A DNA stretch of 64,000 bases from Apophysomyces variabilis (Eukaryota > Mucoromycota > Mucoromycetes > Mucorales > Mucoraceae). A program made the translations under genes and the position numbers. The notes beneath the pieces were generated by a model that was not told the DNA's origin, made no database searches, and worked only from the letters and a program-made list of their open reading frames with translations. Shown piece by piece: positions 34,274 through 59,978 of this stretch. Position 1 is the first letter of the stretch. Every line of letters starts with the position of its first letter. The stretch spans positions 73,913 through 137,912 of the forward strand of contig MZZL01000034.1 in NCBI GenBank assembly GCA_002749535.1, read 5' to 3'.

Positions 34274-37200
34274 ATGGTGGATTCAATGGAAGCAACAGAT
34301 AGGTAGAATGGTTGGCCTGAGGGGAAAACCGGGCACTTACCCTTGCGTAGCATTCCTTTGACACAACAATACGCAAGCGCACTTGAATCAGCCATTGGAT
34401 ATTACCACCAACAATCTGCTACGACCGATGCCGCATGGACAATTCTTCAGTCAGATCTCGATTCAAGATCATCACAGATCCAGCTGTTGCAGATGGAGTC
34501 GTCTTTCAAGGTTGTAGCCCAGTGCAACGACAGTTGGCTTCCTCACGACTGGCAGAGTGTATTTACGACCGAAAGTGTTCGGAAACTATGTAATACCAAT
34601 TGCAAATGTCTACAAAGATACATACTGACTTGCCTCTTTTTTTTAGGGGATACAGAATTGGAAAGCTACAAGGTTCTTGATCGACCAGATAATAACCTAC
34701 GGATAACCCAGATAAAGATGAAGGATTCATGGGATATAGGGTAAAGGAAAAACTCTCAGCCAAGTTAAGACCTTTTCATGCTGACATGCCCCAGGCCCCG
34801 TGATCTTGTGCTCGTCGAGAAGACCACTCAAAAGAAGCACTCAATGATGTATGTCATTGCCTCACTCAGCACACCATTCAAGATGATTTATGATATCCAG
34901 CAACCGGATCCCATATCTGATGCACGTGTGACGCTCTACTACCAATTGGGTTGCTCTTCTCTGCCCACGCATCGGTACAGCTATCTTGTTTCGTTGGTAA
35001 CTGGGCCCCTGGAAGTGTTGCAGCTCCATGGCGTCGTTCCGTTTGTTAGCCACTCTGTACGATTCCAAATAGAGGCTACAGAATATGACAAGGATACACG
35101 CACATGGGAGTTGCAGTATGCACAACCACAGGAAGAGCCCTCGCTAGCTTCATCAGTAGGTAGCATCCATATACACCAGGACCGTCACCTGGGATCATGG
35201 GAACATCATCACTCCACGGGGTCCTTGCCGCTGGCATCTTCCCTGCGCAGAAATAGTTTCATGGCATCCTCTCTTTTCCTTCCTCAGCACGGACTTCAGC
35301 GGAGAAATCTATCAATGTCTTACCCCGATAAAGAACCCTTATTATGGTCAGATTCAGCCGTGTCCAAACTAGAAATCGAAGTAGATGGACACACTTGGGC
35401 AGAGGGATCAATAGTAGAGGTTTCCGTTGATACCGGCCACAGAGAATGGACAGATCAATATACGAAATCATGTATACAATGCTTCCGACGGCCCCAAGCA
35501 AATCGTTATCTTATCTGTGTTTTGCATCCCCCCGACATAGCTCGTTATCTTCGACAAGCTAATATTGACGACCTTGACGATATACATGACGAGTCATATG
35601 AAGAAACGTTCAGAGTGAAGCTTATATTGACAACCAAGCAATGCGACGACAAAGGATTCCGGTTTATACTGAATGGGAAAGAATGGCCACTCCATCTATG
35701 GATAGCGAGAAAGCTGATTACAGAAAATGGCAGCAACGACGAAAATAGCAGCGTTTCCAGCAGCAATGATGATGATGATCACAACAACGATGAGGGTGAT
35801 CATAGTGGCGTAGATAATGACATTTTTGTGGATGGTATGGAAGAAATCGGGGAGAGAACTGTTGAAGCAGAGGTTCAAATCACCGTTAATAACGAAAAAG
35901 AAGACAAGACACAAAATAAAGCAGCAGAAGAAGAAGACGAAGAGGAGGAGGAGAAACAAATTGAGAAGGACTTATAGTAAGCAATTAACGGTCAATATTA
36001 ACCAGAAATGACTGATGATCGCGAATTAGTGAATCGCACGAAGATATTGATCAAATACCGGATCTGTCGAGTAGCCAGTTACTTGATACCATCACTGTTC
36101 CGGAGACAGATCCAGCCACTATATTAAAAGCATATAATTACTTTGACGCACTTTTTCGTGACAATGTCGATTGGAAGATTTTGCAGGTGGCCGAGGCGGT
36201 AAATGGTTACGTGATGATAAAAAGAATGGAAGTTCCTGGTCACCCATTGGGCGTATTTATGAGCGAATCTGTCTGGAATGACTGCAGTGTATGGGACGTC
36301 AAAGCTACGATTGAATGCATAGGATCTCGAAAAATGTGTAAGCAAAAACGATGGTTATTAGCACGCACGTTCCGTAACAAGTCTATACAGGGGATCCGCT
36401 GTTGGAGGAAAGTACATTATTATATTCAGTGTCACCCACGTGTTCGATATGGCACAACAAACACAAAGGAACCTGGCCGTCCAGGTAATACAAGTTATCT
36501 ATGCTACTCTTTTTTTTTAATTTATCTATCTTAGTCCGCGAGATTATGTGGTCTTCGCATCTCAGTACACTTCAGCCAAAAGAATCGATCTGTGTTCCAC
36601 ATCCTGTACGACAGAATCTTTCAATCACCAGCCTCTACCAAAAGAGGCCCCAGGTTATGTTCGTGGCCATTTGGATGTTTCTGGCTGGCGGTTGGAGCGT
36701 GTGAATGCTTCCACAACAGCTGTTAAGCATATAGTGCAGAGCAATCCACAAGGATGGATACCATCTTATGTGCTTAACAAATTATCTAGTCAAACACCGA
36801 TCATTGTTCATACTGCGCGTAAATTTATGCTGAGACACGGAGTGCCACCGAATATGGAATCCTTAGAAAGGGGTCGGGTCATTGCCATGGACTACGACCA
36901 TGAAAGAAAGAACTGGCGTTGTGAATACACACGACCATCCGTCCAGACAAACTCCGAGAGCTCCAGCACTAAATCCGTCATTAGACTGGATCGCCGACAT
37001 GGCTGTAAGTACAACGTGGTTGTTGATCCTCCCCCATCAAGAATACGTGCAGTAGAGCGTGATTGTGACCTGTATGGTATTTGGCTGGATATCGAACATG
37101 ACGAGGAGTTTATTATACCACAACGTGGAAGAATATTAGTACTTATCAAACCACACAATAATTTCTTGGCTGTAAATGGCGCAGAAGTTGCCATCCAGCG

Positions 37201-39174
37201 AGACACGAACAGAATGCAGCAGTCGGATACAACTAGCAATGATGGAGAAGAGACCTCCGAGATGGTTTCGGATGAACTCGGATTGACCATTCAAGCGTTA
37301 CCAGTATCCCCGGCTGATCAGGCTCAAGCAGCGTTTGCGTTTATGAGAAGAGTGGATGATCAACAGTTCGGCTGGACACTTATTTCCGATAAAAACGGTT
37401 TACGTACCATCAAACGTCCTGGATCTAAACCGAGTGCAGATAGTACAACGGGCGATCATGATCTTAGAGTTCCTGAGCCATTTGTCATCTATAAGGCTTC
37501 GAAAGTGATAGAAGGCTTTTCACTGGAAGAGATTGCTTCTGTAGTGACCGACATAGGGAATCTACGGCAGTCCTATGACGAAACATTGGAGAAGATAGAA
37601 TCTGTTCGATGTATCAAACGAGGGTGTCATGTTGTTCATCAGATTATCAAAGCAATTTTTCCATTCAAGTAAGGTGAATCCTACTTAGTCACGGATGCTA
37701 AATGCATTAATATATTAGATCACGGGAATTGTATTTATGTGCTTGTACTGCATATGAAAAGATGCCATCCACCGAAAATGCATCTGGTGATCGTGTCTTC
37801 TATGTGGAAACATCCCTCCCGTTTCCATCGCAGCAAGCAAAATATCCACGAGGACATATGTTTGTTTCCGGTTGGATACTAGAATCTATAGATCCATATA
37901 CGACGACTACCAATTACCCAATTCCATCCATGCGAGCGACCTACATCGTTGCCTTGGACCTCGGAGACTCGGTGCCTTCCTATGTCAGTAACCTGGTTGC
38001 CTCAGGTTACCACAAAAAGATTTCTTGGATAGAATCTTTAATGAAAAAGCAAGGGCCGCCGCCTTTCCTTCGGCAGCCACTACCCGCTATGCGTTGGGAA
38101 AATCATAAACTGACACAGCTGGAAGATGAATCTGTCGAATGGAAAAGGGTTGAATCCGCCTACGATGAGGCTACACACCGATTCAGCTTGGCACTGAGCT
38201 TCCGATGTGCTCGCTTGAAAAAATTGGAACGTCGGGGCTCATTGAACAAAGACGTGGATACAGTACTTTCACACATTATTACGGATTTGCAATCTTATCC
38301 GCGTGGTTATGAACTCTCATGCCGTCTCACTCGCGAGCACAAGGATGTATCTAGGATTTTGTCAGTTCAGATATCAGAACTTGCACCACAGCCATCCCAT
38401 CTTATCAGCAGGAAACCTAAGAAGCATGCTATTTATGTAACAGCCAAGCTACGCAAAGGTGTAGATTATGATTTGGTGCTTACACTCTCACCTGCTGTAG
38501 AAGGAGACAAAGGGGAAGTCCGTAAGCAGCTCACAGTCAATGAGATCCTAGGCGAGGAGGAGGACGATCGATGGCGTGGTGTAGTTATTGTTAACGGTCA
38601 GGAAGTGAACGTAAATTCTGAGACAAAGATGGACGTTAACAAGGAAGATGCGACTGACGGTGAGGAAGCTTCAGACGATGCCGTAGATGAATCAGCACCA
38701 GCATTCACGACATCAACCCCTTTAGAAGGTGCTTCTACAAGTGGGAACGTAAGCAGGCTGTTACAGTTACAAAAAATAAGGTGAATAATGCTTTTTTTTT
38801 TTTTTTTGCAGACTCAAGATTTCAGGACTCGGATGCTTCTTCCTTTTACTCGGGTCAAATCTAATTCTTTTCTGGCCAAGGCAAATGACGACGCTACTTT
38901 AGGGCAGGAAACAAGGAAGGAAAACTTACAGGATGAGACAGCATTCCTACCAGTTATTGCTGCAGAGAGTTCAGACGAACCACGATGTAGCCGAACCAAG
39001 GTTGCAGTGATTATGCTGCTCTTATGTATTGGTCTTGCTATTATTCTTGCACTACTCATGCTACAACCACTGGAGACGCTGGACGTCTCTGATAATGTGA
39101 AACCATTATGGCGATTCTCTGCACTAGGAGGTTGGGAAATACAGGTGATAGCAATTCACCGAGCACATGTATAA
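34274..39174 (+). CDS. Triple START-like lipid-binding protein with C-terminal membrane anchor
   Basis: Nine exons: 34274-34302, 34351-34589, 34647-34740, 34795-35976, 36030-36337, 36391-36484, 36535-37668, 37719-38748, 38812-39174; 1490 residues. Three START-like units lie at about residues 12-210, 540-740 and 905-1120. Unit 1 has VRKLWDTELESYKVLDR, then PRDLVLVEKTTQ. Unit 2 has SRKMWDPLLEESTLL, then PRDYVVFASQ. Unit 3 has SRELYLCACTAYEK. These are the START pattern of a Trp-Asp strand, then Pro-Arg-Asp and a strand. Each is followed by a GWxLE strand (VSGWRLERV, VSGWILESI) and a helix. Between units are acidic linkers, including Asp and Glu runs near 435-515. Residues 1433-1456 (VAVIMLLLCIGLAIILALLML) are one membrane span near the C-terminus. 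START domains carry sterols or other lipids. A tail-anchored triple version suggests lipid transfer at a membrane; ligand unknown. Its stop is 38 bp from that of the STRA6-like gene. Confidence 0.88.
35760..35830 (+). repeat. GAT-rich low-complexity coding repeat
   Basis: Short GAT/AAC triplet runs encode an Asp/Asn-rich stretch in the linker after the first START unit. It is likely to vary in length between strains. Confidence 0.6.
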
Positions 39175-39212: not shown

Positions 39213-42200
39213 TTATCGTTTGCGGGATTGGCGAAGCTAATATATAAAAAAGAATACATAAGTAAAAAAAAAAATAAGGACGGGACAATGATCCATGATG
39301 ACTTACTACAGGGTTATTGATCAATGTCAGTGCTAAGAACCAACGCGTACGAGCGCGTTGTCGATGAACACACCGTAACGATCGTGGATGAAGAAGGTAA
39401 TTTTCGTTTGAAAGGCCAGCCTGCAGTTCTTCTGACTGTCGCCGTACTGCATGTTTTCTGCACACACGTAACCGAGATAATGATTTTCCTAAACAGTGAT
39501 GCAGTACGCATTCGACGAAGACAAGCATGATCGGATTGTTGTATTCATGTTCGGCCAAAAGCTGAGGTGAAAAAATCATGGTGTATGTCACCAAGTTACT
39601 TTTATAAAAACAGCGAATAGCCCAGTTTACTTACCATTCCACAATAAGCCGCAAAACCTGATGAAAGATTCAGTGGAAAAGGAAAAACAAAGGTATATTA
39701 GGACACATTACCTCCATCTCCTCGACGGACACTCCAGGTTTCAGCGTTTCTATCTACTCTTAAACTGAACAGTGGATATCTCAGGATCAGTTTCAATGTA
39801 CGTAAGATGTACGAGGTCAAAGCACGTGTCATACTGGTGAACATCATAAAATACCAGTAATGAAGCAAGGGTGATCTATTTTGCAGTGTAAATTGAGACC
39901 GGTTCTGGATGAACAAGATTCTTGTCAATCGTTTCTGGATCATTTGGACAATCAAAGCCACAAAGAAGCTCGCGAAAAAGACACCTGTAAAGATAGATAG
40001 ATTGGTTTAATGAATACCGCCTCTTCGTGTCAGTCCTCCTAATTCTCATTACCATAGCCAGCTCGATGGAATGCAAAATCTCTCAATTTATCCAGCTGAA
40101 TCAACATAACAACAGCCGTGCCGATCAAAGCGACTTCCAGCATAAAATACAGTGTCCCTGTGAATCCTTAACAGTAAAGTGGATCCAATCCCTTTAGTAT
40201 CGCAGAAAGAAAAAAGCATTGGAGACCCCACTTCTCGACCTACCAAATCCGACGCATACACCTAAGAACCGTATAGCATCATCCAGATCGATCCTTTTAA
40301 TTCCAGGGTTATCATACAAGAAGGAGCTGTAGGCAGGCAAACTTACGAGTTATTCTTTTTTCCTTTGAACAAACCGTAATCTCCCCGTCGAATCCGAAGA
40401 ATATCCTTGGTAACGCGTCGCAAGATACCTAAAGCATAGATCATGCAAACTAGGAAACGAAGAAAAAGATGGAACATAAGTCCTTCCCAAACGAAAATGC
40501 GCAAGTAGTCCCTTACATCCTCCCGCTCCAAGGGTAGCAATGCAGACAGCAATCCGCATGAGCATGAACGTCCTTTCCGCAAACTGCATAGGGTTTGGGT
40601 GGTACTGAAACAGGGATAAGTAGCGCGACCATTCACATATCCGACTCGGCACGATTCCGCCAACACCCAACAATTGGGTTAATAAGACAGGTATCTGTAA
40701 TGTGTTTTTTTTTCTTAGTATGCGTGCAATAAGACGTCAAGCGTATCATTAAAAAGGAAGCAAAAAAAATGCCCTACTTACCAGTTGACCAAGACAATAG
40801 AGCAACAAACAGAGTGACACTTTGACAGGGTAAGGGATCCTTTTTTTTTGATAGATTAAGGGGCAAGGTTAACCGTGAACTGTTTTTCTTGTTCCCTACC
40901 TGACAAGGTCATGGATACCAAACATTTTCCTTATGCGACGGACCCATATCGAAGGTTTCCATGACAATTTTTTCGGAGAGCAGCAACAGCGAAGAAACGT
41001 GCCTATACGACGGAAAAACGGAGTAGGGCTCGTGCGCTATACCTTCCAAGTAAGTTCCTAATCTTTTCTCATGCAAACTCTGTGTTTGTGGAACTTACTT
41101 CAATTTGAAACTTTTTCCCAATCAAGGATTTAACATATTGTTCCTCTATATCATCGACTTCCAGAAATGCTAGGCGACAAAGATCGCAGGGTGAATACGT
41201 CAAACGGACCAGAAAATATAAAAAGACCCAGATGAATGCCACCGCTGTAGGAAGGGTAGTCAGCGTGTTGATCACCAAGAAGAGATGGTCGCGTGCATAA
41301 GTGATCACATAGGAAGGTAAATCGGTGACAACGCGTAAAGCACATAGAACCAATGTTACATAAATGCCCAGAAGATTGGCAATACGAGAGCAGTAGCTCG
41401 CATGATAACATAGAAAAAGCTAAAAAACAAAGAATGCCTCTGTTGAGAAAAAGAGGTGTCGATCATCTTTTTTCCTGCACGCTTTTTCCCCCTTTACCGG
41501 ATAGAAATAAACGGCGTACAAAAAGAAGGAAAGAAACAGTTCTTTAAAGCCAAGAGAAGATAAAAGGAAAGAAATATCAATACGTGAAAAGTCAAATATG
41601 CAATGCATTTACCGATCATTTTGGCCACGCGAGGAAGCCATGAGTCAAAGATACTGGATTGCGAATTGATCAGATTCCAAGCTTGACTAAAGATAAAAGA
41701 GCCTAATGCAGAACGTGGCCATCCTGTAAATCGGCAATTTTTTTTTGTTTTTCGCTTTTTCTTTACCTATGGTAGTAAATATACACAAGAGAACAGGATG
41801 GGAAGGCTGCCGACATAGAAACCGAAGAGGTCTGCAGATAAAGAAAGAAATGGAGAGATTGAGTAACAGAGCATAAGACAATAACATAGAAGAAACTTAC
41901 GGAGGAAAGCGAAAATTAGTGACAAACGTGAGAATGGCGAGTAAGGAAGGGATCAAGACAAAGTTGAATAATGCCAAGTATTGCAAAATACTGCTCACTA
42001 TAAAAGAAATTGGAAAAGAAAGAAAAAGATTTGTTAGGACTAAGTATCGATCTATCCTTCTTTCTTTTCTTTTGTTCCATTAACTAGTGCTGCAGAGTTG
42101 TGTCAAGGTGGCTGCTGGATAATTCACGTAAAGACCGGCATAGATATAGGTGAAACACATGGGATTGGCTCTTGATCCATAGAAAGCAAGTATCTGCAAA

Positions 42201-43213
42201 TATGGAGATTATCCTAGGTTCAGATCCAAAGAAAACATTCATACGAGAGAAAACAAACGTTAGTGACATACAATGGATCGAGTGCCTCGAGGAAGGGTGA
42301 CATCTGGAATAGCGGCCAATTGACGCAGCACAGGGCTAGTGTAATTTCGGATCAAGACATTGTTCTTGTCAAGGAATTGATAATTCACCAGCATAGCACG
42401 ATTAATAGCGACACTATACAGAATGGATTGTTTGTCGGGTATGTTGATGGAGGCCAGTAAGGTAAGGTTCTGTATAAGTAAGTTGTTGTTTAATAGATAG
42501 TCTTGGCTAGTTAGCCAGCATGTTCTTTCATTTTCTATTTCACGGACCATGGCATGATCATCCACAAACTGTTTCATATACCATCCTTCGACTGTTATTC
42601 GTTGTATCAAAGGTTCATCTGCGATGCGAACAATTCGAGTATCATTCGGTTGACCATGTTCTTCCTCATAAACGAATCCACTCGGCTTATGTCGATTCGG
42701 TGCACAACATCCTCCCACTACGGAAAAAGAACAATAAGTAAAAATGTAGCACACTCTGTCTCTTCACTTTTGCTACCCGTAGATATGGTGACATTCATTT
42801 CGCTTAGATAGACCTCGACTGAGAAAGAGTGAAACAAGGGTACTGATTAATAAAAGGCTACCCACAGATTCTTGCTGATTCTACCATATTGTTGGCGGTA
42901 ATACACCCAGTCGTCGGATTCTCTCGTCTGCCAGCCGTCTTGCAATTGATTGATTTGACGACACTGGCCATCTCGAAGCAAGTTTTGTTTGCTGTTAGGC
43001 TTAATCAGAAACTGCTTGCTCTTTCTTTCTTTCTTTCTATTAGCATTGGTTTTGCTTTCTCCCTTTACCCATTTAATCTTTCCCAACATTGTGTGGTAAA
43101 CGCTTAAAAAAATAATAAGGAAGTGTTCATCATCAATTCTTCTTAAAGTCTCTTTCGATTTTACCTGCGACCACCATTGGATAAGCTATCAAGATCCAGA
43201 AAATGCGATGCAT
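39213..43213 (-). CDS. STRA6-like multi-pass membrane receptor (retinol-uptake receptor family)
   Basis: Twenty-one exons: 43213-43165, 43102-43069, 42991-42885, 42818-42777, 42717-42272, 42193-42085, 41997-41901, 41831-41767, 41723-41613, 41541-41498, 41419-41099, 41036-40900, 40839-40782, 40694-40517, 40449-40347, 40326-40244, 40157-40053, 39984-39712, 39657-39635, 39561-39307, 39236-39213. Every phase joins; 887 residues. A signal peptide and a Cys-containing outside part (GGCCAPNRHKP, several NxT/S sites) of about 240 residues precede roughly nine hydrophobic segments. STRA6 landmarks are in the last third: IDLDDAIRFLGVCVGF, NRSPLLHYWYFMMF, SLRVDRNAETW, FAAYCGMLLAEHEYNNPIML and near the end RTRWFLALTLINNPV. 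In animals STRA6 moves retinol between carrier protein and cell. The ligand here is unknown. Confidence 0.85.
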
Positions 43214-43403
43214 GAAATCCTCCTTTGTATTTCTTTTTAGGTTATAGTTTATTAACAGCTATAGAAAGGACAGGCTGTCTTCTTATAAATCATCAGAAAA
43301 TATGAAAAAGAAAGCATGCTGAGATGCAAAATAACAACAACAACACAAAAAGGAGTTTCTTTCTGCTATCCTGTCTCTCCTTTAGAGATTGAATCTGGTC
43401 TTA

Positions 43404-44595
43404 TCAAAAGGCCGTGTTAAATAGACGATCACCCGAATCACCAAGACCTGGAATGATATAACTACAAAGAGGAACGGGGCAAACAAAAGTCAAAAACATA
43501 CAGAAGAGACTATATATACATGCAACAGAGAAAAAACCCTTACCCTTTGTCATCTAAATTTTCATCTACAGCGCCGACGAAGATATGGATATCAGGATGT
43601 TCCTCTTGTAAATGGGCAACACCCCGCTGCGACTAGAGTAAAACATACAGAGAGAGACGCTATGTTATGTATCCTATGCTGTTCCTCTCTCTCCCTCTCT
43701 TTCCTTCGTTTTCTGGATAATCAAGAACTTACGCCAAGTATGCTCACAAATTTAATTTGCGGACCAGGTATACCCCATTCCTTCAGAATGTTAACGGTGG
43801 CTACGGATGTATTACCTAACAATTCCCTTCCGTAAGGACAAGGATCAAAGTCTTCTTTCTTCTTCAATTCCGAACCCTCACCTGTTGCAATAATGGAATC
43901 CAATACAAAGCAGATATCGACATTCGGATTGTGTGGTAACTTATTATAGTATTCCACTGGTTGCAGCGTGACCTAGATAGAGAGGGTGAAAAAAAAAAAG
44001 GAAAGTTAAAAATGAATGAACGGAGGCCTGTCAAAAGGGATAGGTAGGGGTGGGAGCGAAAGGGGGTTGTTGTTGTTGTTGTGTTATATAATGTGGCGAA
44101 CCAAACCTTCTCACGATAAAGACCTAGATGCAGTACAGGTGCATCCGGGAATAACGCCAAAAACCCTGAATGATTTCATAGCAGCATGATTAATACCTTG
44201 TTCTTTTTCCGGGGTTGCCCTTTTTTGTGAATTTTTTATTTTTCTTTTTTCTTACCATCGACTAATCCAAGACCTGAACGTAAGACAGGAACCAAGGCCA
44301 CACGATCTTTTAACTCAGCCGCTTGATAAGGCGCATAAGGACTTTGAAGCTAAAAAAGAAACAGTAGAAGCCGTTATCCATTTGTTGTTCGTATTTTTTG
44401 AGTAGAAAATTGATAGCTTACTGTTTTTTCATGAGAGAGTTTTAAATCGGTGGATGATTCATAAGCCAAAAGGGATGTCAAATCTCTCATAAGTTCCCGA
44501 ACGGCTTTCGGAGGTTGATTGGCCTCTCGTAACTGAGATAGCTTGGTGGCTACAATGGGATGTTGACTAATGTGCAAAGTGGCAGAGGAAGACAT
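43404..44595 (-). CDS. FUR1: Uracil phosphoribosyltransferase
   Basis: Six exons: 44595-44422, 44349-44256, 44165-44107, 43972-43733, 43632-43544, 43461-43404; 237 residues. It makes UMP from uracil and PRPP. The PRPP loop is [12 protein letters not shown]. The uracil-site end is [15 protein letters not shown]. The core [17 protein letters not shown] is diagnostic of the UPRT family. An insertion after the PRPP loop ([20 protein letters not shown]) is unusual: most UPRTs read GGS-A at this point. This copy might therefore be a Urc6-type paralogue rather than the main salvage enzyme. It is head to head with the Urc1-like gene across 317 bp, as expected of a shared pyrimidine regulon. Confidence 0.93.
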
Positions 44596-44912
44596 GACGC
44601 AATGAACCGTTCAAAGAACCCAAACGGAATAAAATAAGAAGAAGAAGAAGAAAAAAGAAAGAGTAAGAAAGAAAGGGCGACTTTTCCCTTCCGGGTTTAT
44701 CTTTCTTTTTTAGACTTTGTAACGCTTTATGCAAACGAGACAAAGCTGATAAGTGTGAAGTCAAGGTCACATGCACACAAACTTGATCAACATTTGACCT
44801 TCTTTCAATCCGTATATCTTTGCCCTCTTTTTTTACTCTTGTTTTTCTTTCTCTCTCTCTCACTCTCTCTATTTTTTTTTCTTTCCAACTTATTATTGAG
44901 AACTGATATATC
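44596..44912. promoter_or_regulatory. Shared divergent promoter of the UPRT and Urc1-like genes
   Basis: The 317 bp between the two start codons has CT-rich tracts near both ends (about 44640-44700 as GA on the plus strand, and 44820-44890 as CT). No specific factor site was recognised. Coregulation is inferred from the head-to-head layout and shared pathway. Confidence 0.5.
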
Positions 44913-47271
44913 ATGACTGTATCCAATGAAGAGACATTGCAGCGTATGGAAAAGGCATTGGAGCTGTTACGTCAAGATCAACTTCGATTAACGGAACAGG
45001 TAAATTGGAAAAGCACCGAAACTTGCTTTTGTTCCCGCAAGTCATTGGACTCAAACGGGCTCTATCCTTTTAGGTGGAGAAATTGACCGCGCAAAAATCT
45101 CAACCTTCTGCTCCTGAGGAACATCGACGTTCATCCACTTCCTCCATGACCACTTCCTCTAAATATCCCCAACGAGTCATCCTCACGAGTAAGTTTCGTT
45201 CCGAAAAGGAAAGAAAGAACACAATCGGAGTTTTGTTGCTTATGCAGCCGTCTGTTGGGCGCACTTCGTTTCAGCTTACCCAGGCCAACATGGTATTTTA
45301 CCCATTCCATTGAATTGGGGTGCAAAGGATCCAAAAGAAAGAGGTCCTGTTATTGCATCTCGCCATGCTGAAAGCATAAAAAAGAGGTAAAAAAAAAGAA
45401 AGGAAAGACCTCCCCTTTTTCATTCTATCATGCTTTGACAAACCTGCCATCCTTTCCTCCTTTCCTCTTCATCCCGGTATCTCATTCTTTGCTTCTTTTG
45501 GGGCAACCCTAGGAATGCAATTGGCGCCTATGGTGGATCTTACTGTGTTTATCGTGCTGTGGCCGTGGCCATTGGCGATTTGCCATCCAATCATCGACCC
45601 AACTTTGCATTGACCGAACCGACATTTAAAGTCGGACCTCACCCTACTTGGTATGATCCAACCAAGATCGTTTCGTTGGATCCATGGGGCCATGTAGCGC
45701 CAACGGTCTTCAAAGAAGAATATGAAGCCGGCTTGGATGTTAGGTATTAAAAAAAGAAAAGATAGGCTATTTTCCTCTTTTTAATTGATCGGTACACAAA
45801 CGCTATTTTTCTCACCCTATTAGACCTACCATTGCTATCACCAAAGCTCATATGACCATGGCAGAAATGGAAATGAGTGTCAAAAATGGCACACTCCAAG
45901 TGGATGGGAAGATTGTGGTGAACAACAAGGGAGATTTGTCGGTATCGAAAGCTGCTGTTGAACCTGTGTGGTACTTACCTGGTGTGGCTGCTCGATTTGG
46001 TATCGAGGAAGGGTTACTTCGACGCGCTTTATTGTAAGTTCAATAACCCTGCGTGGATATGAGGGGAAGGAAGGGTAACGGGGGAAGAAGAAGATGGTGG
46101 AAGGGTTTGCATGCATCGGGCATTTATCCAACCTTCTTTCTTTGTTATTAGCGAGGATACTGGAGGAATGTACCCTGAATTGATTACACGACCGGATTTA
46201 AAGGTGTATCTACCACCTATTGGCGGTATCAGTATCTATATCTTTGGTAACCCAGCGCTTATCTCGGGTAAGTTCCTTATCTCGTCTTGCTCCCATGGGA
46301 AAACAAAACAGCGAGATGTTAGAAATGCGCTTATCATAACGTAACTTCTTTCTTCCCTTAGATCCCTCCAAGAAATTGACCCTCCGAGTGCATGATGAAT
46401 GTAACGGTTCGGACGTATTTGGTAAATTTGCTTTTGTTTCAAATGCAAGTTTTGTAACGTTATTTGATTCGTTAACTTTGGCAAAACTTTAATTTCAGGA
46501 AGTGACATTTGTACCTGTCGACCTTACCTCATCTATGGTATCGAAGAATGTGTCAAACAAGCACAGCAAGGCGGCGTGGGTGTCATTGTTTACTGTATGG
46601 GAAAAATCAACGTTCGAAAAGCAAGCATAGAAGGCTCACCTTGTTTTTTTTTCTTTCTTTTTTTTCTCTATAGTCCGGAAAGAAGGTCGTGCACTGGGTG
46701 AAGTGACCAAATATTTGGTGTACAATGCACGGAAACGACAGGAAGGAGGCGACACGGCGTCCAACTACTTTTTACGAACAGAGTGTGTTGCCGGTGTACG
46801 AGACATGCGATTCCAAGCGTTGATGCCCGATGTATTGCATTGGCTGGGTATTCAAAAGATTGATCGAATGATGGTAAAGTGTGAAAACATGCGCTTTTTG
46901 CCAGAGGCTTAGGGAAAAATCTGACGCCTTATTCTTCTTCTTTCTATGTTACCCATCAGTCGATGTCGGATATGGTAGGAACGGAGTTGACATGATTGGT
47001 CAGTGTTAATTCTAGGTTTAGAAACATGACGCCATTGTGGCTGCTGGTATTCCGATCCTGGAGCGTGTGCCTATTCCTGAGCATATGATTCCGGCCGATT
47101 CAAGGTAAAAAGAAGAAAATCGAACTCTTTGGAGACTTAACTTTTATCTGTTGAAATAGAGTTGAAATTGACGCCAAGATTGCCTCGGGTTATTTTACGG
47201 AAGGGCACGTTATGGATGAGAAGGAGTTGGCTAATGTGAAGGGTAGAAACTGGGAAGACATTGAACATTGA
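44913..47271 (+). CDS. URC1: Urc1-like uracil-catabolism protein (GTP cyclohydrolase II-like)
   Basis: Twelve exons: 44913-44999, 45074-45188, 45275-45386, 45513-45743, 45824-46033, 46152-46267, 46362-46421, 46499-46594, 46674-46873, 46960-46974, 47022-47104, 47160-47271; 478 residues. One exon is 15 nt. The C-terminal half is a GTP cyclohydrolase II fold. Zinc ligands Cys304, Cys315 and Cys317 (HDECNGSDVFGSDICTC) have the exact C-x10-C-x1-C spacing of RibA. YFRKEGRALGE matches the family's Arg/Glu-rich site. The long N-terminal part (GILPIPLNWGAKDP and others) is typical of Urc1 rather than of riboflavin RibA. In Lachancea kluyveri URC1 is needed to use uracil as nitrogen source. A coiled coil occupies residues 1-40. 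Confidence 0.9.
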
Positions 47272-54922: not shown

Positions 54923-57900
54923 ATGGCAGCCAAACCTCCTCCTCGTAAACGAAGGCATATCGAAGGATCGCCCGATCCTGCTGAAATTGCAGACACAACT
55001 ACCAAGCCTATAGTATCCGATGCCGAAGAAAACACAACCTCCGACCGGTCTAACAACGTAGGATCACCTCATGCCGATAATACTCGAACAGACGAGCCAC
55101 AGTCCTCTGAGCAAGAGGATCCAGTCAATGCAAAGAATGAACCGCCGCATTTAATACCTCCTATCAAAGAATCACCTACACAAAAGACGTCCGCAACTCA
55201 GGATCGGAGAGTCTCCTTCGCTCCACCGCCAACATCGCAGGTACCTGAAGATTCTTTCCAACAAGCATCCGAGAAAGAACGAAAACCTCGACTTGTCATT
55301 ACCAAAATGGTCCTTAATAATTTCAAATCTTATGCTGGTCGTCAAGTCATTGGCCCTTTTCACAAGGTTTGTCCTCTTTCCTCCCTGATCTCTTTAAACT
55401 TATAGATTTTCTACCTTGCTTGTCTTCCTTTTTGATATAGTCCTTTAGTGCGAGTGCGTATTGACTATAGAGCACGAGAATTTTTGGTTGCTAATCTATT
55501 AGCTTAGTTGTCGGACCGAACGGATCTGGGAAATCAAACGTGATCGATGCTCTATTGTTCGTATTTGGATACAGAGCGAACAAAATGCGTCAGGGAAAAC
55601 TTTCAGAGCTGATCCATAATTCTGCCAAATTTCCAAATTGCGAATCCTGCTCGGTCGAAGTCCATTTTCAGGAAATCATTGACGGAGTATGTGGGCAGTG
55701 GAAGGCGTGCGAAATGCTATAACGTCAGTTTTGTCTATAGGACGGACCTAACAGCTTCGAACCTGTACCCAACTCCACCTTAAAAATAGCACGCCAAGCT
55801 TACCGAGGGAACAGTAGCCGATACTATATCAATAACAAAACGAGCTCATTCGCCGAAGTAACGACTCTGCTGAGGGATAGAGGAATCGATTTGGATCATA
55901 AACGTTTCCTTATCCTACAGGTATATAGGGTATTATCAGAAGGGTTGTATTTTAATCATGATGCAGGGTGAAGTCGAGTCGATTGCCTTGATGAAGGCGA
56001 AAGCAAAAGACGAAAATGATGACGGATTGCTAGAGTATCTGGAAGACATTATTGGGACTTCTAAATATAAAGAACCAATTGAATCGGCAAATGGAAGGCT
56101 GGAGACATTAAACGAAGAGAGACTTGAAAAATTGAATCGGGTGAAATACGTCAAAAAGGAAAGAGACAGCTTGGAGGTAGATTTCGATCGCATACGGGAA
56201 GAACAAGATGACTTAATAAATATATCCAGGGTAAAAAAAGGGAAGCAGAAACTTATCTTGAGAACGAGAATGATTTGGCGAGAAGAAAAAATGAGCTCTA
56301 TCAGATCTATATATCCGAAGCAAATGCAAACATCGAAATCGCCGACAAAGCAGTGGTACGTTACTCGTAAATTGCCACACATCCGTTGTTGATAGCACTA
56401 CCATTTTAGGAAGAACTCAAGATAAAACTTAAAGATGACGCAGAGAAGCAGGTTGATCTCGAAAAGGAGATAGCAGTAATGGATAAGGATCATCAAAGTA
56501 CTGTGAAAGAGTACGAGGTAAAGCATTATATAATGCATGTAGCAAAGCGTGATATAACTCGAGTCTGTGATAGGCTATCGAAGCTGAAACAGACAAGTTA
56601 ATGAAGCAATACACCAAATATGAAAGAGCAGATGTCGAATTACGCGAAAGGAAACAACATTTGAGCAATAAATTGGAAAAAGCAAAGAGGAACATTGAAA
56701 CGGTAATAAAACAGTTAACCAATGAGTTTCGCCGCTGTGGACGTCTAACGTGGACAAATCAGGATCGAAACGCTAAGCAAGAAGCTCTAGAAGCGATTAA
56801 GACGAGCCAAGAAGAATTGACTTCTCGAAAAAAGGAGTTAGAGGGCGTTGAAAAACAGTTGAAACAAGAAGAGAAGAAACTAGATGAGATTAACCAAGAA
56901 CTAAAAGGCAAAACGGACGGATATCTTGCGCAAATAGAAGTCCATCAAAAGGAATTAGCACCATGGACCGAAAAGATCAATGGCAAGAAAAAAGACATTG
57001 ATGTGAAACAATCCGAAAGTGAAATTCTGGCGGAGCGGATATCATCAGGACAGAGGGCTGTAGAAGAAGCGGAAAAGCGGCTGGCTGCTATCCAAGAAAC
57101 GCACAAGAAAAAGGTTTGTCCTTAGGCTAAATGATGTACACGCGGACCAACATTTGCATGGTTATTAGGTTGCTGAAAGTGAACCTCTTCCTGCTGAAAT
57201 TGAAAAGCTAAAATCAGAGCTTGCAGAAATAGAGGGAAAAATCAAGGTAAACAAGGAAACTATACACTCTGTATTACAGCTTTTCTAATGGAGAGTCTAA
57301 TAGAATGTAGAAGAAGCCGAATCTAGTCATCGTACCCAGTTAAATATAGCGCGTCAGAAAGCAGACGAAGCTAAAATATCTATGCAACAGTCTCAAAACC
57401 GAGGAAAAGTCCTTGCCAGCCTTTTGCGTATGCGTGATTCTGGGAGAATTAAAGGAATCTATGTAAGTTGTTTAAAAAGAGCGTTTTGTTTTCTGACCTT
57501 ATGCGACAGGATCGCTTGGGAAACCTTGGTGTCATTGATGATAAGTATGATGTGGCTATTTCTACGGCTTGCCCAGCTCTTGATAATATCGTCGTGGACA
57601 CCGTTGAAGCTGGACAAGCTTGTATTGAATACCTCCGTAAAAATAATCTTGGCAGAGGTGTTTTCACGATCCTAAATCAACAAAATCATCAGGACATGCG
57701 ACCTATTGAAACGCCTGAGAACGTGCCTCGCCTTTTCGACCTTGTGAAACCTAAAGACAAGAGATTTTTGCCAGCGTTCTACAGCGTTTTGAAAGATACC
57801 GTTGTTGCTGACAATATGAAGCAAGCCAATAGAATTGCATTTGGGGAGAAGCGATGGCGAGTAGTTACATTGGATGGAAAGCTCATCGAAAAATCCGGTG

Positions 57901-59978
57901 CCATGACTGGAGGTGGAAACCGGCCGATTCGTGGCGCTATGGATTCACGGTTTAAAGGAGAAGAAGTTAGCGCAGAAACAGTAGCTAGATTGGAAAAAGA
58001 ACGTGATAAACTGGAAGCTGGACTTCAAGATATCATTCAAGAAAGACGTGCTGCTGAATTGGCCCTCCGTTCGACAAAAGATATGCTACCAAGAAAAGAA
58101 GTGACGTTAGAGAAGCTTCAGATGGATATTCGCAGTTTGGAGAAACAGGTCGGAGATGAAAACAAACGTCTGGAAGAGCTCAAGTAAGTAGGATGCATCA
58201 TCTCAGTACCTCCATTGACGGTTTCGATCGATAGTGCTCAGACAAAGCCTCGTCCGGAGGATATCCAACGACATGAGGAGATCAAGAAAGAAATTGAGCG
58301 ATTGAGTGCAGAAATGCAAGAGCTTAAAGAAAAAACTGGAGAAATTGAGGAAAAGATACGATCCTTACATGAAGATATTATGAATGCCGGTGGTATGGAT
58401 TTAAGGTTGCAGAAAATCGTAGTCGACGACATGCGAAAGAAAATTGACAACTTGAACAAGAAGATCACTAAATGCATGGTTGCTAAAGCCAAGGCGGAAA
58501 AAGACGTGACAAAGCTCGAAACTTCAGTGAAAAAAAATGAAAAGGAGATAGAGAAGATTGAAGCAGATCTAAAAGAAGTAGAGCAAGAATTTAATACAAA
58601 ATCCAAAGAAGCAGCTCAGATCATGCAAGAAGCAGACAAGTTAAAAGAAGTAAGATCAATACGAAGGGAAGTCCAGGAGGCGCAACTTACTGAACCTTAG
58701 TTTTTATCAAATAGAACATGAAAGCGAAAAAGCAAGCCATGGAGGAACTCACAAAAGAATTGGATGAAAAGCGAGCGAATATAAACAAACTCAGGACATC
58801 CAAAGTAAGCCATGAAGGTATTATAGCATCTAATTCATAGGTAATCATTCATAGGTTAATATCGGGAATCAACTCACTGACTATCAACGTAATCTGGTCG
58901 ACAATCAAAAGAAAGTCAGTCACTGGAAAGAGCAGCGATCCAGACTATTCCTTCAAAAGATTAAGTAGGGTGAATAGTAAAGATGAATTGAAGGGAAACT
59001 TACTATGACGATAGAGATGAGAGTCCTGAAGAACTGGAGCTTCCGAATTTTGACGACGAGGCTTTAGACGAATTACAAGCCTCCAAACAGATAATTAAGG
59101 GAGAAATTGCCGAGCTTGAAGGTAAGAAAAAGTGATGCGGCCATATCATGCTGACAGGGACATTGGATACAAAGCCTATGTTCAAACTGCGAAACCGAAT
59201 TTATCCGTATTGGAGGAATATCGACGACGTGAAATAGAATATAAAGAACGTTATAAGGACCTTGAAGAAGTGACAGCGAAACGTGACGAAGTGAAGATCG
59301 AAGTTGAAACACTTCGTAAACAAAGATTAGACGAGTTCATGTACGGTTTCAACATCATTTCGCAGAAGCTTAAAGAAATGTATCAGGTAAAGCACGGCAT
59401 TATCTATGGATAACATGGAGTTTATGAGTGTCCTCGTTAGATGATCACCATGGGTGGCAATGCTGAACTTGAGTTAGTGGATAGTCTGGATCCATTCTCA
59501 GAGGGCATTGTATTTAGCGTTATGCCTCCAAAGAAAAGTTGGAAGAATATTTCGAATCTTTCTGGCGGAGAGAAGGTAAAATCATGTTGAAGATGATTAC
59601 CAACTAATTTCTGTTTAGACTCTTAGCTCTTTAGCTCTTGTTTTCGCTTTACATCATTTCAAGCCAACGCCATTATATGTCATGGATGAAATCGACGCTG
59701 CTCTTGATTTCCGTAACGTTTCGATTGTGGCCAACTATATTGCAGAGCGAACAAAAGATGCGCAATTTGTTATCATCTCCTTACGTAACAATATGTTCGA
59801 ACTAGCCGACCGACTTGTCGGTATCTACAAAACGATGGATTGCACTAAAAGTATTGCAATTAATCCAGCCATGATTGCAATGCTTAGTCTCTCTACCACT
59901 GAAGATACGACTACTGCAACCGAACCTGAACCTGAACAAGAATCGAAACGTGAAACTGAACCATCATCCACTCACTAA
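54923..59978 (+). CDS. SMC4: Condensin subunit SMC4
   Basis: Exons 54923-55366, 55441-55453, 55508-55686, 55741-55920, 55967-56176, 56230-56355, 56410-56517, 56574-56702, 56763-57113, 57169-57246, 57304-57462, 57510-58183, 58235-58649, 58715-58804, 58855-58964, 59015-59121, 59175-59386, 59441-59575, 59619-59978; 1359 residues. After a disordered 125-residue head come Walker A (VGPNGSGKSNVIDALL) and the SMC4 mark LILQGEVESIALMK. Two long coiled coils flank a hinge encoded near 57510-57930 (ending GAMTGGGNRPIRG). The end carries the signature LSGGEKTLSSLALVF and Walker B (MDEIDAALDF). It compacts chromosomes with SMC2 and non-SMC subunits. The 60-nt segment 56703-56762 is in frame and could be exon or intron. 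Confidence 0.95.

Follow-up and report, generated by a model that had tools for sequence, protein, structure and literature searches.

Does a mucoralean fungus carry a genuine counterpart of STRA6, the vertebrate retinol receptor, and, if so, what might such a protein do there? The question is raised by a locus of Apophysomyces variabilis, lying within a 64,000-nt stretch of contig MZZL01000034.1 (positions 73,913 to 137,912; hereafter the window), where a minus-strand gene (39213..43213) runs from an ATG at 43213 to a stop codon ending at 39213. The predicted gene model encodes 846 amino acids (aa) in 22 exons (43213-43165, 43102-43069, 42991-42885, 42818-42777, 42717-42548, 42469-42272, 42193-42085, 41997-41901, 41831-41767, 41702-41613, 41541-41498, 41419-41099, 41036-40900, 40839-40782, 40694-40517, 40449-40347, 40293-40244, 40166-40053, 39984-39712, 39657-39635, 39561-39307, and 39236-39213), separated by 21 introns of 53 to 87 nt that are all GT..AG and consistent in phase. 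Exon boundaries were set from the DNA and checked by aligning relatives, and the model is sequence-based. A first-pass annotation had called a STRA6-like gene with the same span and strand but with 21 exons; the two sequence blocks that it quoted are both present, FAAYCGMLLAEHEYNNPIML arising at the junction of exons 20 and 21 and RTRWFLALTLINNPV forming the end of exon 21.

By homology, the gene is almost certainly a genuine, divergent member of the STRA6 (RBP_receptor) family. A search with the PF14752 hidden Markov model (HMM), which the first-pass annotation had proposed, gives a significant match for the window protein (81.5 bits versus a cut-off of 25; E 7.5e-23), and all five fungal relatives submitted pass as well (63.6 to 93.8 bits); NCBIfam returned no match for two fungal relatives. 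A profile of 22 fungal relatives retrieves full-length zebrafish STRA6 (5sy1_A) at E 2.3e-6, and a profile-profile alignment (hhalign) of fungal against fish sequences reaches a probability of 97.2 (E 3.1e-11) over 462 columns. The likeness to STRA6 first noticed in the last third of the protein is real but is not confined there: it extends over the membrane part (fungal profile columns 329-870, residues 231-797 of the predicted model). That the match might instead be spurious, or the gene broken, is suggested by an identity of only ~20%, by gene calls in several relatives that lack some exons, and by a single-sequence search of the PDB in which the preliminary protein model reached STRA6 only as a weak match to a 29-residue zebrafish calmodulin-binding peptide (5k8q_B, E 0.77). 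We consider this extremely improbable and reject it: HMM, profile-profile comparison, and predicted fold are concordant in upholding STRA6 homology, the 22 exons stay in phase, and the window protein retains 168 of 172 highly conserved columns (at least 95% across 55 relatives; counted over residues 18-846, with at least 20 rows filled), so that the gene looks intact. The combination that the first-pass annotation had named as refuting STRA6 homology, no significant HMM match together with an unlike predicted fold, did not arise.

Those 55 relatives (54 from one search and one from another) represent 32 genera, counted by hand, all of which we assign to the Mucorales or Umbelopsis; the searches reach only proteins that share short words with the query. 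Best local identities to the 54 are 38 to 61%, except for P0030 of Apophysomyces ossiformis at 86%, the closest relative overall (86 to 90% over the part covered; tree pairing support, 100). A further protein search produced 663 matches, and the 120 listed were all fish where named (nine had no name). A genome search of A. variabilis located a single locus of the family, and we regard the gene as one orthologue across the Mucorales and Umbelopsis. Two paralogous clades, of ~690-aa and ~850-aa entries, were considered and rejected: the shorter entries seem to be gene calls with exons missing, the tree contains no short clade, and the genome of A. variabilis has one locus. Vertical descent within the Mucorales and Umbelopsis is the simplest reading, if not a proven one. 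A recent acquisition from fish or another animal is not favored, because fish sequences lie ~10 changes per site away in the tree and the larger groupings of fungi resemble what we take to be Mucorales families; Umbelopsis rows do not form the outgroup (they are nested within a fork supported at 81), and 12 of the 57 inner branches in this tree of fungi and fish are open. One record, P0021 from Dichotomocladium elegans (1083 aa), carries both PF14752 and PF03909 and is probably a fused gene call.

The membrane part accounts for most of the resemblance to STRA6. Hydropathy peaks after residue 233 partly overlap and were merged by judgement to nine membrane segments (residues about 234-681; 39908..42092, minus strand), with a weak additional peak at residues 765-783. 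In a comparison with zebrafish STRA6, the computed fold is STRA6-like: predicted model residues 231-797 match 5sy1 chain residues 27-574, and the nine segments, as modeled, agree with STRA6 in their three-dimensional arrangement. After segment 5 comes a linker motif, EEQYVKSLIGKKF (residues 427-439; 41108..41146, minus strand), which aligns with YVKKILKKK of fish STRA6 and whose Tyr-Val is common to both groups (36/38 and 34/38 fungal rows; 34/34 and 33/34 fish rows); we take this stretch to be CaMBP1, touched by calmodulin in animal STRA6. The highest conservation among the fungal sequences falls in the block RVDRNAETWSVRRGDGGFAAYCGMLLAEHEYNNP (residues 731-764, across two introns; 39532..39760, minus strand), which aligns with RLDISLLNRNVEAFDPGYRCYSHYLKIEVSQSHP of zebrafish STRA6. 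Also after segment 5, in exon 41419-41099 (minus strand), is a CxxC pair (residues 413 and 416) conserved in 45/46 and 45/45 fungal rows; it has no counterpart among the columns common to fungi and fish and is possibly a metal or disulphide site.

A further feature shared with fish STRA6 lies at the extreme C-terminus: a calmodulin-docking-like segment, RARTRWFLALTLINNPVLRQSR (residues 823-844, across the last intron; 39222..39357, minus strand). Besides the peptide match of the preliminary protein, the profile of fungal relatives recovers the calmodulin-binding peptide at E 0.043, and the window protein is identical to the zebrafish CaMBP2 stretch at 14 of 28 positions; CaMBP2 is the STRA6 region reported to have the most extensive calmodulin contacts (PMC7154012). 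Columns conserved alike in fungi and fish make up 8 of 18 in this segment versus 54 of 509 overall (p 1.8e-4), and the best 16-column window of such shared conservation falls within it. The 509 comparable columns are those from residue 237 on, five shared columns before that point (MAFFT, ectodomain against fish N-termini) having been set aside as evidence; the segment was flagged beforehand by the PDB peptide match, and its precise boundaries were fixed once the shared columns had been listed. A calmodulin-like locus occurs in the A. variabilis genome in three pieces (77, 88, and 92% identity to vertebrate calmodulin). From the conservation of this segment we infer that the fungal protein probably docks calmodulin.

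At the other end, the protein departs from animal STRA6. Exon 1 (43165..43213, minus strand) encodes a signal-peptide-like start, MHRIFWILIAYPMVVA, with a hydropathy peak at residues 4-22, a call based on hydropathy. The ectodomain that follows (residues about 17-232; 42098..43102, minus strand) is predicted, from sequence and from the fold of the Mucor relative P0002, to be a beta-sandwich of sugar-binding type. Residues 1-232 contain five Cys (22, 38, 81, 82, and 213) and four NxS/T sites (72, 102, 135, and 176), and at least 150 of the 232 are present in 49 of 56 fungal rows (window included). The predicted model resembles carbohydrate-binding modules (CBMs) and the FBA domain; no Pfam CBM or FBA match was found at E≤1 for the window protein or five relatives. 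These fold comparisons bear out the initial impression of an outer region, bearing Cys and NxS/T, unlike that of animal STRA6. A fused lipocalin-like carrier was entertained and dropped, the matches listed being other beta-sandwiches with no lipocalin among them, which does not by itself exclude a lipocalin. An ectodomain of this type could also belong to a signaling protein or a sensor of the cell wall, in which the beta-sandwich would recognize a glycoprotein or glycans and calmodulin would receive the signal through the membrane part, no ligand being moved; we judge this improbable.

The findings on RBP4 contacts and retinoid partners tend to weigh against a vertebrate-type role. Fish residues equal to the RBP4-contact positions are presumably those given by human STRA6 numbering. 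The contacts themselves are Tyr336, Gly340, and Gly342 (PMC9992173). Across the A. variabilis genome (38.7 Mb in 126 contigs), searched in six frames, which can miss domains split among exons, there were no matches to lipocalin PF00061 (control positive in 2 of 14 genomes) and none to LRAT (control positive in 1 of 14); microbial rhodopsin was also not found, but its control was positive nowhere, making that search little informative. The RBP4-contact motif not being kept and no lipocalin having been found, a retinoid-receptor role stays putative, and for the same reasons the built-in beta-sandwich would probably replace a soluble carrier, meeting a donor, a partner, or a cell wall glycan.

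Taken as a whole, the reading that we put forward, tentatively and as somewhat less than probable, is that of a calmodulin-docked, STRA6-like passage with an outer beta-sandwich, serving a hydrophobic ligand that may be an apocarotenoid. The protein would most likely reside in the surface membrane or a secretory membrane, the N-terminal beta-sandwich facing outward and the C-terminus lying on the inner side. As in STRA6, the C-terminal segment would be the docking site of calmodulin, and a cleft formed by membrane helices would let the ligand through without energy input. The computations show homology, a predicted fold, the type of ectodomain, and a conserved calmodulin segment; calmodulin binding, membrane, passive transport, and ligand are what we infer, and passage of some hydrophobic ligand is, on balance, slightly favored.

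Several points weigh against this reading. Identity to fish STRA6 is about 18 to 22% and, given this together with the ~10 changes per site between fungi and fish, function may have drifted from that of STRA6. Superposition on 5sy1_A with Foldseek gives a loose fit (target-length TM-score, 0.43 and 0.47; query-length TM-score, 0.31 and 0.34; root mean square deviation, 21.8 and 17.4), and the two predicted models are middling (mean pLDDT, a predicted model confidence, 52.4 and 68.3, with a low C-terminal third); both are monomers of P0002 and not of the window protein, and the better one (68.3) was built from an alignment that includes fish STRA6. The RBP4-contact motif is absent from all four fungal rows shown, in a loose alignment that separates the groups weakly, the four fish rows also being partial. 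The retinol that vertebrate STRA6 takes up comes from RBP, and the receptor is reported to give no help with uptake of the free form (PMC4584289), so that a carrier-free fungal version would need a different outer step. Finally, a different protein family has already been put forward for the perception of trisporic acid: the published receptor candidates are three class C G-protein-coupled receptors (GPCRs), up-regulated in mating (PMC5705715), and the A. variabilis genome has class C GPCR matches at three places.

It is accordingly a real possibility, though short of the likelier outcome, that class C GPCRs account for trisporoid perception, the STRA6-like protein having no part in mating. 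A separate transport step would nonetheless be compatible with a GPCR, and the report proposing these candidates states that functional tests are still required (PMC5705715). The most likely class of ligand for the passage would be a product of beta-carotene cleavage, a trisporoid or related apocarotenoid; as a specific assignment, an apocarotenoid ligand is doubtful. In its favor, the A. variabilis genome has three carotenoid-cleavage (RPE65-type) loci (counting two neighboring matches on one contig as one) and matches of phytoene/squalene-synthase type. In the Mucorales, trisporoids derive from beta-carotene via CarS and AcaA (PMC5133782). The same fold and calmodulin docking could instead serve an ordinary membrane lipid (a sterol, isoprenoid, or fatty acid derivative) unrelated to trisporoids: a housekeeping role in lipid handling would equally account for presence in 32 genera of Mucorales and Umbelopsis, the convergent neighboring gene has a lipid-binding START domain, and no retinoid-specific partner (lipocalin or LRAT, the rhodopsin search counting for little) was found in the genome. 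This, too, we hold to be fairly unlikely, since the characterized relatives handle retinoids. Apocarotenoid hormones, moreover, are what the Mucorales are known for among fungi (PMC5133782).

Returning to the calmodulin-docked passage, the gene is a candidate handler of carotene-derived mating signals, and, being a single gene, it can be tested as a possible means by which trisporoids pass the hyphal membrane or take effect there, an unsettled point for which the published GPCR candidates for trisporic acid are proposed, not tested (PMC5705715). In its strongest form, the argument would be that STRA6 did not start as an animal vitamin A receptor: mucoralean fungi would possess a calmodulin-docked gate for apocarotenoids, independent of RBP and equipped with an outer capture domain of its own, that carries trisporoid mating signals through the hyphal membrane and fills a gap in the trisporoid sex-hormone system at the step of transport or perception; we regard this as speculative and rather unlikely. 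Finding the same calmodulin segment in a fungal orthologue that does not keep the RBP4 motif suggests that calmodulin docking is older than RBP-dependent uptake of vitamin A.

Descriptions of STRA6 as animal-specific (PMC5977736) or as absent from invertebrates (PMC5133064) contrast with the report of a rotifer STRA6-like gene with PF14752 (PMC12220480) and with the names of fungal database entries. Fungal relatives bear automatic names only, many of them "hypothetical protein" and many others retinol-binding-protein receptor or STRA6, in line with what the first-pass annotation had noted for Mucoromycota. Because presence of the family in these fungi is already recorded in automatic annotation, no new family is being described here. 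No study of fungal STRA6 turned up among the titles and abstract openings listed from the literature, a weak negative because some listings covered a small part of large result sets. What is new in this reading is that a STRA6 fold and a retained calmodulin segment occur together with a conserved ectodomain of sugar-binding type and with no RBP4 motif, in fungi with apocarotenoid mating signals.

Around the gene, one or more START-domain genes (34307-39171, plus strand; PF01852, E 3.2e-11, in an open reading frame [ORF] at 36521-37669, with a membrane-like segment in the last ORF) appear to converge on its 3′ end, with ~40 bases between. Just upstream on the same strand (about 43400-45000, minus) is a uracil phosphoribosyltransferase gene, with PF14681 in one ORF. 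The P0030 record of A. ossiformis joins uracil phosphoribosyltransferase to a partial receptor, a fusion that is probably a gene-calling error and that suggests this adjacency is kept in that species. Farther away, an ORF of another gene (57453-58184, plus strand) encodes an SMC hinge domain (PF06470, E 5.1e-24).

Set beside named systems, the fungal protein has in common with vertebrate STRA6 (zebrafish 5sy1) the PF14752 domain, nine membrane segments in a matching arrangement, the CaMBP2 segment (14/28 identical in the window protein), and the YVK motif of the linker. It differs in its ~20% identity, in the ~215-residue N-terminal beta-sandwich that replaces STRA6's short N-terminus, in RBP4-contact residues that are not kept, and in the lack of any RBP-like lipocalin found in the genome. 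To the Fbs1/FBA sugar-binding domain and to CBM4/16/22/61, the ectodomain is similar in predicted fold alone, at about 5 to 13% identity. RBPR2 (STRA6-like), the second vertebrate RBP4 receptor, is related to STRA6 (PMC9992173) and is set beside the fungal protein by description only. The trisporic acid receptor (TAR) candidates, as class C GPCRs, belong to a different protein family proposed for the same signaling (PMC5705715).
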